Shown in pieces: positions 37,544-39,434 of a stretch of 39,434 nt of DNA. The position numbers and the translations under genes were made by a program. Under the pieces are notes generated by a model. It was not told the origin of the DNA, ran no database searches, and saw only the letters and a program-made list of their open reading frames with translations. Numbering within the stretch: position 1 is the stretch's first letter; every line of letters begins with the position of its first letter. The stretch comes from an uncultured bacterium (GTDB lineage Bacteria > Verrucomicrobiota > Kiritimatiellia > RFP12 > UBA1067). Location of the stretch: contig CACYQU010000016.1 in NCBI GenBank assembly GCA_902776615.1, forward strand, positions 1-39,434. The letters are read 5' to 3'.

Positions 37544-38572
37544 TCAATCTTCCCAGTCGAGAATAACTTTGCCTGAACGGCCAGAGATCATCGCCTCAAA
37601 GCCCTTCTCGTAGTCGGTGTACTTGAAGCGGTGGGTTATTACCGGGCTGATATCGAGACCGCCCTGAATCATCGCGCCCATCTTGTACCACGTCTCGAAC
37701 ATCTCGCGCCCGTATATGCCCTTGATCTTGAGCCCCTTCCAGACGATGTGGTTCCAATTTACCTTTGTTTCAGGGCCGTGGATTCCGAGAAGAGCTATAC
37801 GTCCGCCGGTGTTCATCGACTCGATCATCTGATGAAGACACGGCGCGGCGCCGCTCATCTCAAGACCGACATCAAAACCTTCAACCATGCCGAGCTGATG
37901 CATGACATCCTCGAGCTTCTCGTTCTTGGCATTCACCGTACGCGTCGCGCCGAGGCGCTTGGCGAGGTTCAGGCGGTAGTCGTTGACATCGACGACGACA
38001 ACATTTCTCGCGCCGACGTATTTCGATATGCCCGCAGCCATGATGCCTATCGGCCCCGCGCCAGTTATAAGCACGTCTTCGCCGACCATGTTGAACGAAA
38101 GCGCCGTGTGCGTCGCATTGCCGAACGGGTCGAAGATTGAATAAAGTTCGTCGTCAATCGACGGGTCGCAATGCCACACGTTTGATTCGGGAATGCAAAG
38201 ATATTCCGCAAACGCCCCGTCACGGTTCACGCCCACTCCCTTGGTTTCGCGGCAGAGATGGCGCTGGCCAGCACGACAGTTGCGGCAGTGGCCGCAAACA
38301 ATATGTCCCTCGCCGGAAACACGCTCGCCGACCTTGACGCTTTTGACGTTTGAACCGACATCGACCACTTCACCAACATACTCGTGGCCAATCGTGAGCG
38401 GCGGCTTGATTTCTTCCTGCGCCCATGAATTCCACTCGTATATGTGCACATCCGTGCCGCATATGGCAGTCTTTTTGATTTTTATAAGAACATCGTTAAT
38501 GCCCATTTCAGGCATCGGCTTGTCAACAAGCTCTACACCCTTCTGAGGCGCCACTTTAGCAATTGCCTTCAT
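37544..38572 (-). CDS. tdh: L-threonine 3-dehydrogenase
   Basis: The 342-residue zinc-dependent MDR dehydrogenase has [15 protein letters not shown] (catalytic zinc Cys and the Tdh-specific Y-x-W), GHEYVGEV, and structural zinc cysteines in [15 protein letters not shown]. The NAD site is [16 protein letters not shown]. It oxidises threonine to 2-amino-3-ketobutyrate, usually followed by Kbl; kbl is not adjacent. ATG 38572 has AGGAG about 8 nt upstream and a textbook TTGACA-N17-TATACT promoter; the extension to 38611 crosses that promoter. It is a single gene. Confidence 0.95.
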
Positions 38573-38602
38573 TCGACTTTCTCCTGTAAAAAATTTGCGT
38601 AC

Positions 38603-38631
38603 AGTATACAAAACCCCCCTTCGAATGTCAA
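38603..38631 (-). promoter_or_regulatory. Consensus sigma-70 promoter of tdh
   Basis: On the minus strand TTGACA (38626-38631) and TATACT (38603-38608) are 17 bp apart. It is the best -35/-10 pair in the window and lacks TGn before the -10. Confidence 0.8.
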
Positions 38632-38768
38632 CTGGGGTATTCCCCGATGTGTAGTCGTCTGATCCATTTTTTTCGCGCGCTACCGGGCACTTGCGATGCC
38701 TTGCGCGATTTTGCCCGTTTTAAGACAACCGTTGTCCTCTCTGACTAGTCTTCGCTATAAAGGAAAGC

Positions 38769-38781
38769 GGGGACAGTCTCC
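38769..38781. repeat. Degenerate GGGGACAGTCTCC palindrome
   Basis: It matches the GGGGACAGTCCCC element at 39133-39145 with one change and, like the copies near 1490 and 1620, is followed by a GGTT(C)GC sequence. Confidence 0.4.
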
Positions 38782-38986
38782 TGGTTCGCGTCAAGAATGT
38801 TATATAATATGCGGCGTGGAAGCGATGTTTATTGCCTATCACAGAATGCGGTAAAACGCCATATTTGCACATTTTTGATTTTGGCCAAAATTTCATTTTG
38901 TGCAGTTATAAAGTGCATCCGGCGCAGGCGAACGAACTAATCAGCCACCCGTCCACACCTCTTGGATGGTGGGTAAGCAAAATTCA

Positions 38987-39096
38987 CCCTAAGGGGTAGT
39001 TGAACAACCCCTAAGGGGTAGTTGAACAACCCCTAAGGGGTAAGTGAACTACCCCTAAGGGGTAATTGAGCGACCCCTAAGGGGTAAGTGAGCGAC
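38987..39096. repeat. Five tandem 22-bp repeats with palindromic CCCTAAGGGG core
   Basis: Units start at 38987, 39009, 39031, 39053 and 39075, each with CCCTAAGGGGTA then a variable (A/G)(G/T)TGA(A/G)C(A/G/T)AC-like half. A partial sixth unit (CCCTTAAG) starts at 39097. Units 1 and 2 are identical; later ones differ at three to five positions, only outside the core. Together with the preceding C the core reads CCCCT-A-AGGGG, a 5-bp inverted repeat. No unique spacers separate the units, so it is not a CRISPR array. Confidence 0.9.
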
Positions 39097-39110
39097 CCCT
39101 TAAGCAATTT

Positions 39111-39145
39111 GGGGACTGTCCCCCCAATTTTTGGGGACAGTCCCC
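39111..39145. repeat. Paired GGGGACTGTCCCC / GGGGACAGTCCCC palindromes
   Basis: Two 13-bp near-palindromes at 39111-39123 and 39133-39145 are exact reverse complements of each other, separated by CCAATTTTT. The whole can fold as one long hairpin or two small ones. It resembles REP-type intergenic palindromes. Confidence 0.65.
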
Positions 39146-39410
39146 GCCAAAAAGGCGCAACGAAGCGCCGGAGAACGCGTTCGTTGCCTCAAAAACGGCC
39201 TGTCGTACACACCACAAAAGTGCATATTTGCGATATATTTGCAATTATTGCAAGTTATCACCCTAAAAGGGGGCTAAACCGGGGCGGGTTCGCAAAATCG
39301 CGCTTGAATAAGCAATACTTGGGAGAGCTCACCTGGGCGGGGACTTGTCTAATCAGAATTTGGTAAACTATCCTACTGTTCAGTCGACATAGTGTCGGCA
39401 CAGAACGGCC

Positions 39411-39434
39411 CGTCCGGGAAGGCCTTCCCAGACG
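39411..39434. repeat. 24-bp near-perfect palindrome at the window edge
   Basis: GGGAAGGCCTTCCC (39416-39429) is a perfect palindrome flanked by CGTC-C and A-GACG, giving 24 bp with one mismatched pair. It ends exactly at the window end and may extend further. Confidence 0.5.

Follow-up and report, generated by a model that had tools for sequence, protein, structure and literature searches.

The tandem array at positions 38987-39096 of the window (the whole stretch of 39,434 nucleotides analysed here, which is contig C16 of a 2.35-Mb assembly of 127 contigs, below called the host) occupies the middle of a non-coding dispersed element of about 590 bp (38761-39345), which we call the carrier. 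This dispersed repeat belongs to a group of similar ones in the Kiritimatiellae-type genome of an uncultured gut-type bacterium. Several copies of the carrier exist, in which the halves are conserved and the middle holds a tandem array; the arrays held by different copies can be unrelated to one another. We read the array as the inner minisatellite of a non-autonomous, MITE-like repeat that would be mobilised by an HUH transposase and whose cores would be dyad sites for a putative protein, and give this joint reading a probability of about 0.6.

The array and its carrier

The features of the window discussed below are as follows.

37544-38611, minus strand: gene of the zinc-binding alcohol dehydrogenase type, neighbour of the array
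38631-38603, minus strand: promoter-like TTGACA-17-TATACT, between the dehydrogenase gene and the carrier
38761-38986, plus strand: left half of the carrier (leader), starting at AGGAAAGCGGGGACAGT; common to C2 and C21, its inner part also to C11, C12 and C13
38769-38781, plus strand: near-palindrome GGGGACAGTCTCC at the left end, a member of the dispersed GGGGAC(A/T)GTCCCC family
38987-39096, plus strand: array of five 22-bp units with exact CCCTAAGGG cores at 38987, 39009, 39031, 39053 and 39075
39096-39105, plus strand: degenerate sixth unit CCCCTTAAGC, directly after the fifth
39106-39345, plus strand: right half of the carrier (tail), common to C2, C21, C37, C12, C13 and C36
39111-39145, plus strand: two GGGGAC(T/A)GTCCCC palindromes in inverted arrangement, immediately right of the array
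39339-39345, plus strand: right end of the carrier, GGGGACT; at the same point the C2 copy has GGGGACAGTCCCCG and the C37 copy GGGGACTGTCCCCG
39346-39434, plus strand: stretch matching the start of contig C21 in inverse orientation, running to the contig end

TRF reported 38987-39100 (5.2 copies, 92% matches) as the sole 22-bp array and the top-scoring repeat of the window. All five exact occurrences of CCCTNAGGG in the window lie within it, and exact CCCTAAGGG cores at 22-bp steps span 38987-39083. The real window contains three core triples at 22 bp, whereas 300 windows simulated from a first-order Markov model contained neither a pair nor a triple. The five-fold 22-bp repeat with a conserved palindromic core, first proposed from the letters of the sequence, is thereby confirmed. 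The accompanying statement that the cores are unchanged holds for a 9-bp core, identical in all five units, but not for the 11-bp CCCCTAAGGGG, which is found in four of the five, the first unit reading ACCCTAAGGGG. Likewise, the cores face the same side of the DNA roughly but not strictly, since a 22-bp step advances each unit by about 34 degrees at 10.5 bp per turn. In CRISPR arrays, identical repeats are separated by unique spacers about 30 nt long; the linkers here are 13 nt long and related to each other, so this candidate was rejected. An Rfam scan of the window matched a tRNA only.

A 621-bp query around the array retrieved near-complete carrier copies in the host on C2 (91%), C21 (90%) and C37 (78%), and partial matches on C11, C12, C13 and C36. 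In the C12 and C13 carriers, both halves align to the window copy, but the middle is an unrelated 23-bp array with the core CCTATATAGG. In the congener G062, the halves of the carrier can be recognised around 22-bp arrays that contain CCCTCAGGG or have the unit AAGTCCAGGCAAGACTGAGGGT. Conversely, CCCTNAGGG arrays also occur outside the carrier: one six-unit arrangement is found in either orientation in eight host copies, on C1, C4, C7, C24, C30, C45, C47 and C59. Because CCCTNAGGG arrays exist without the carrier and carriers exist with other arrays, the two are separable modules. Since the slot accepts both 22-bp and 23-bp arrays, it is also doubtful that helical phasing is the cause of the spacing. 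The open-licence papers searched contained no description of an exchange of unrelated arrays within one carrier.

The long gene-free flanks of the array had been taken to indicate a structural locus. They are indeed non-coding, but they are the remainder of the dispersed element, and the right flank ends with the contig at 39434, about 340 bp beyond the array; the locus is better described as a dispersed repeat with a minisatellite inside it than as a structural locus standing alone. At the right side, the window (39346-39434) and the start of C21 both end in common sequence at the near-palindrome CGTCCGGGAAGGCCTTCCCAGACG, probably an unresolved longer repeat.

Dispersal in the host and its relatives

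Searching the host for three cores at 22-bp steps with at most one mismatch gave 93 places, against none for the reversed-pattern control. We located 21 arrays on 21 contigs, comprising 132 units in register, with four to eight units per array; the further genome copies that the original prediction had proposed to look for are therefore present. Numerous scattered copies lacking core conservation had been named as evidence against a site array; copies are indeed many and scattered here, yet the core is retained in them. Eleven of the 21 arrays lie within 2 kb of a contig end, where 22% would be expected (binomial tail 0.0019), as expected if such repeats break the assembly.

The triple-core pattern is present in 7 of the 145 genomes searched, the host counted. 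Relatives that share it are MAGs of the Kiritimatiellae or Lentisphaeraceae type, for example UBA4286, RGIG1481 and Candidatus Spyradenecus faecavium (199 places), the last of which is assigned to the Lentisphaeraceae in the NCBI taxonomy. The label Kiritimatiellae-type for the host is taken from these relatives. An identical core and step occur with unrelated linkers in the genome of another family. The CCCTNAGGG array type is missing from most relatives and is hence not essential to the clade. At the mnmE locus, compared in order to find an empty site or a target-site duplication, the array was found in the host only, among 30 loci, but the two nearest relatives differ in the upstream neighbour, so that the comparison yielded neither a clean empty site nor a duplication. 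Viral contigs gave no match to the triple-core pattern, and the open-licence literature searched held no paper on arrays of the CCCTNAGGG kind in the Kiritimatiellae-type clade.

Matches were also obtained in Prevotellaceae, Porphyromonas levii, Ruminococcus and Methylobacterium; their core and step are alike by design of the search, and we do not claim common descent for them. The Prevotellaceae bin.145 MAG has 22-bp CCCTAAGGG arrays at L070:3364-3560 and L096:104-230. In the former locus, the units switch to the CACCTATGCGTG type in unbroken 22-bp register and are followed by a long hairpin.

Other array families

A 400-kb sample of host DNA, chosen regardless of arrays, contains six arrays whose period lies between 21 and 26 and whose copy number is at least 2.5. 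All six have a period of 22 or 23, and none is a CCCTNAGGG array: two belong to the CCTATATAGG family and four to a 22-bp family based on GGTGGCAGG. No arrays of period 22 or 23 were found in 348 kb from 20 congeners (the first contig, or the first three, of each genome) or in 262 kb from more distant relatives; in both samples, most periods were divisible by three, as in repeats of coding DNA.

The arrays of these two families that we located in the host are listed below.

L176:212-344, L187:133-307, L154:1170-1347 and L155:1243-1444: CCTATATAGG arrays of 23 bp, inside the carrier (C12, C13) and elsewhere (C4, C18)
L171:3987-4117, L181:236-397, L185:4245-4429 and L190:15715-15793: dispersed 22-bp arrays based on GGTGGCAGG, on C1, C8, C14 and C23

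Pairs of CCTATATAGG at 23 bp with at most two mismatches occur in 3 of the 145 genomes (48 in the host, five in G067, seven in G055); the reversed control gave none in these three and two in G118. Since G055 and Spyradenecus are members of one genus, the two core types (CCCTNAGGG at 22 bp and CCTATATAGG at 23 bp) are both found in two of the order's bacterial families, their linkers being different and unrelated. The four arrays on C1, C8, C14 and C23 have the unit GGTGGCAGGTCT(A/G)GCGGC(T/C)AGA, the conserved part of which is not palindromic; palindromes are therefore not a general need of such arrays. Some host arrays have further dispersed palindromes (GCGGGCG..CGCCCGC with CTGGGAGAGC) in their vicinity, for instance at L019:1341-1440 and L181:200-215.

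Core conservation and spacing

Neighbouring exact cores no more than 100 bp apart in the fetched loci are spaced by 22 bp in all 87 host cases and all 113 Spyradenecus cases, a count that leans towards 22 because the loci had been found with the 22-bp pattern. Among the places listed by a separate genome search for wider gaps, almost all pairs are 44 bp apart; G070 has an exception of 47 bp and G041 one of 43 bp. Of 90 interior cores, 86 are exact, whereas 42 distinct sequences are found among 47 non-redundant linkers, so the predicted drift of linkers around constant cores is borne out. Conserved cores, drifting linkers and a strict 22-bp step are, at the level of sequence, what would be expected of protein-binding sites, as had been suggested.

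A neutral minisatellite, in which palindromic units prone to slippage or gene conversion serve no function, would account for the patchy distribution of the pattern (7 of 145 genomes), for the variable unit number and for the several unrelated unit families within one genome. It fits poorly with the strict spacing in both genomes, with the retention of cores despite changing linkers and with the recurrence of core and step beside unrelated linkers in another family, and we regard it as unlikely.

Alternatively, the array might act as a long stem-loop, transcribed or single-stranded, that ends or protects transcripts in the manner of REP or BrickBuilt elements, its palindromes being kept by pairing. 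The window array does fold as one long hairpin (-66.7 kcal/mol, z -7.9), and terminator-like hairpins flank it, among them one predicted at 39109-39127, by the palindrome pair on its right. In addition, 9 of 52 Spyradenecus arrays overlap a predicted gene in our purpose-built ORF model, all nine at its 3' end. However, any run of palindromes would fold. Swapping linkers among 20 arrays left folding unweakened (mean z +0.23, below zero in 8 of the 20; window array, z -1.35), and no covarying pairing extends past the exact core, offset 5 pairing in 49% as in shuffles. Weak pairing signals appeared at linker-dyad offsets 9 and 10 in the non-redundant set (p 0.01 and 0.02, uncorrected for 22 offsets). 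Selection for a long hairpin is thus not supported, and we consider the stem-loop an unlikely explanation.

The position flanking the core bears on the same question. On the left it is A or C, and on the right T or G, a rule that 103 of 108 host cores and all 167 Spyradenecus cores follow; these counts are not independent because array copies are related by descent. The rule does not hold in G127, where 0 of 11 cores conform, or in some distant genomes. The two positions can base-pair in only 53 of the 108 host and 75 of the 167 Spyradenecus cores, and in the host they do not covary (p about 0.55). A stem would need such pairing, whereas a protein reading half-sites in duplex DNA would not, and the pattern therefore favours, though indirectly, binding sites in duplex DNA over a selected hairpin.

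The ends of the arrays also have a recurring form. A terminal unit with an even palindrome (CCCTTAAGGG or CCCCTAGGGG, at most one mismatch) flanks 13 of the 21 host arrays, compared with 0 of 21 for controls at each of six offsets. In Spyradenecus, the terminal CCCTTAAGGG begins a base earlier, for which reason the same test gave 0 of 52; there, 46 oriented CCCTTAAGGG matches in 45 of 51 loci have CTTAAGG in the next unit.

Gene setting and replication functions

None of the 21 host arrays lies inside a gene according to the same ORF model. The arrays might be operators of a single regulon, whose genes would share them upstream, and in the window the carrier does sit some 130 bp upstream of a sequence that resembles a good promoter of the dehydrogenase gene. 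Yet no gene family stood out as recurring beside the arrays (the largest cluster comprised six of the loci compared), and arrays are also found between convergent genes and at 3' ends, which makes a single regulon highly improbable. In RGIG1481 (G070), two arrays, L043 and L049, adjoin related protein genes of unassigned kind.

Iterons, a partition site or part of a replication origin had been named as candidates. Plasmid iteron units are close to 22 bp in length, and the direct order of the units would suit iterons as well. A single origin or partition site is nevertheless refuted by the 21 arrays dispersed over 21 contigs, none beside dnaA or parB: dnaA and the array on C9 are some 40 kb apart, and parB is on C8, where no CCCTNAGGG array is listed. 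Moreover, GC skew does not change sign anywhere in the window, no plasmid-type rep protein was detected among the eight window proteins scanned (including DnaB, 5 kb away), and plasmid and phage collections gave no match. This group of explanations was not borne out, and we now rate it as extremely unlikely.

Possible mobility and comparison with known repeats

The ends of the carrier and its inner palindromes are of the GGGGAC(A/T)GTCCCC type, a 13-mer that occurs 10 times in the 400-kb host sample versus once in 348 kb of congeners. The ends also fit GGGGWSAS, which a survey reports as a motif common to the inverted repeats flanking TIRYT genes (PMC3733652). Six Y1_Tnp matches were found in the host, five of them over the cut-off. 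At the end of C21, a Y1-type transposase gene (L165, C21:32623-34486) has GGGGACAG motifs, the type present at the carrier ends, inside and just after it, namely GGGGACAGTCACT and GGGGACAGTCCCC in the coding sequence and CTGTCCCC about 65 bp past the stop; the other five loci have no GGGGACAG motif. The CCCTNAGGG core is found at none of the six, so that the REP/BIME arrangement, with palindromes flanking a RAYT gene, is not seen for it. Mobilisation by a Y1 transposase is a lead, not a result.

The closest kind of known system is the modular interspersed repeat with an inner minisatellite, such as BrickBuilt and BOX; the present element is a variant of these, not a BrickBuilt. BrickBuilt, a MITE of P. 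gingivalis, consists of a leader and a tail around a variable number of tandem units of a single 23-nt type (PMC4596501). Similarly, the carrier is an intergenic dispersed repeat with leader and tail, variable short tandem units, a predicted long stem-loop and no transposase inside. It differs in that the window unit is 22 bp (23 bp in the C12 and C13 copies) and in that the carrier holds unrelated unit types. The IS5-type ends of BrickBuilt, GAGACCTTTGCA, gave two window matches with two mismatches, none near the element, where 2.8 were expected. BOX of Streptococcus, including pneumococcus, also has two end modules flanking a variable number of tandem inner modules, and in S. suis the end modules vary around the same inner module (PMC3049150). 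Here, by contrast, the exchanged part is the inner module, with a short palindromic core at 22 bp, as judged from the published description (PMC3049150). The element further resembles REP/BIME and REPIN sequences with RAYT or TIRYT genes in being made of dispersed extragenic palindromes in clusters, likely mobilised in trans by a Y1 enzyme (PMC2817692, PMC3733652, PMC3116915). Unlike REP/BIME as described in these sources, the CCCTNAGGG units are shorter, are tandem at one fixed step and lack association with a transposase at the six Y1_Tnp loci.

Proposed mechanism and significance

Taken as the inner minisatellite of a mobile repeat, the array could have arisen as follows. An HUH transposase (Y1, RAYT- or TIRYT-like) acting on the GGGGAC(A/T)GTCCCC ends would have copied the carrier around the genome, and slippage or unequal recombination would change the unit number. 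Each core would be a dyad site, at which a dimeric protein may read the two half-sites separately in duplex DNA. As a putative block of binding sites, the array may affect neighbouring transcription or chromosome organisation.

One may go further and imagine a clade-wide module system, in which mobile carriers have a slot that exchanges unrelated 22-23-bp arrays of dyad sites, each with its own putative DNA-binding protein, so that dozens of intergenic places could gain or change whole blocks of sites. We put this forward tentatively, as a possibility that we think unlikely.

Short interspersed repeats are usually described as one copied sequence family, whereas here a single carrier slot holds different arrays. 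If a protein reads the cores, mobile repeats could rewire or reorganise the chromosome by swapping blocks of binding sites. Even if no protein does, the example shows that bacterial minisatellites free of coding constraint can retain both a fixed core and a strict 22-bp step.
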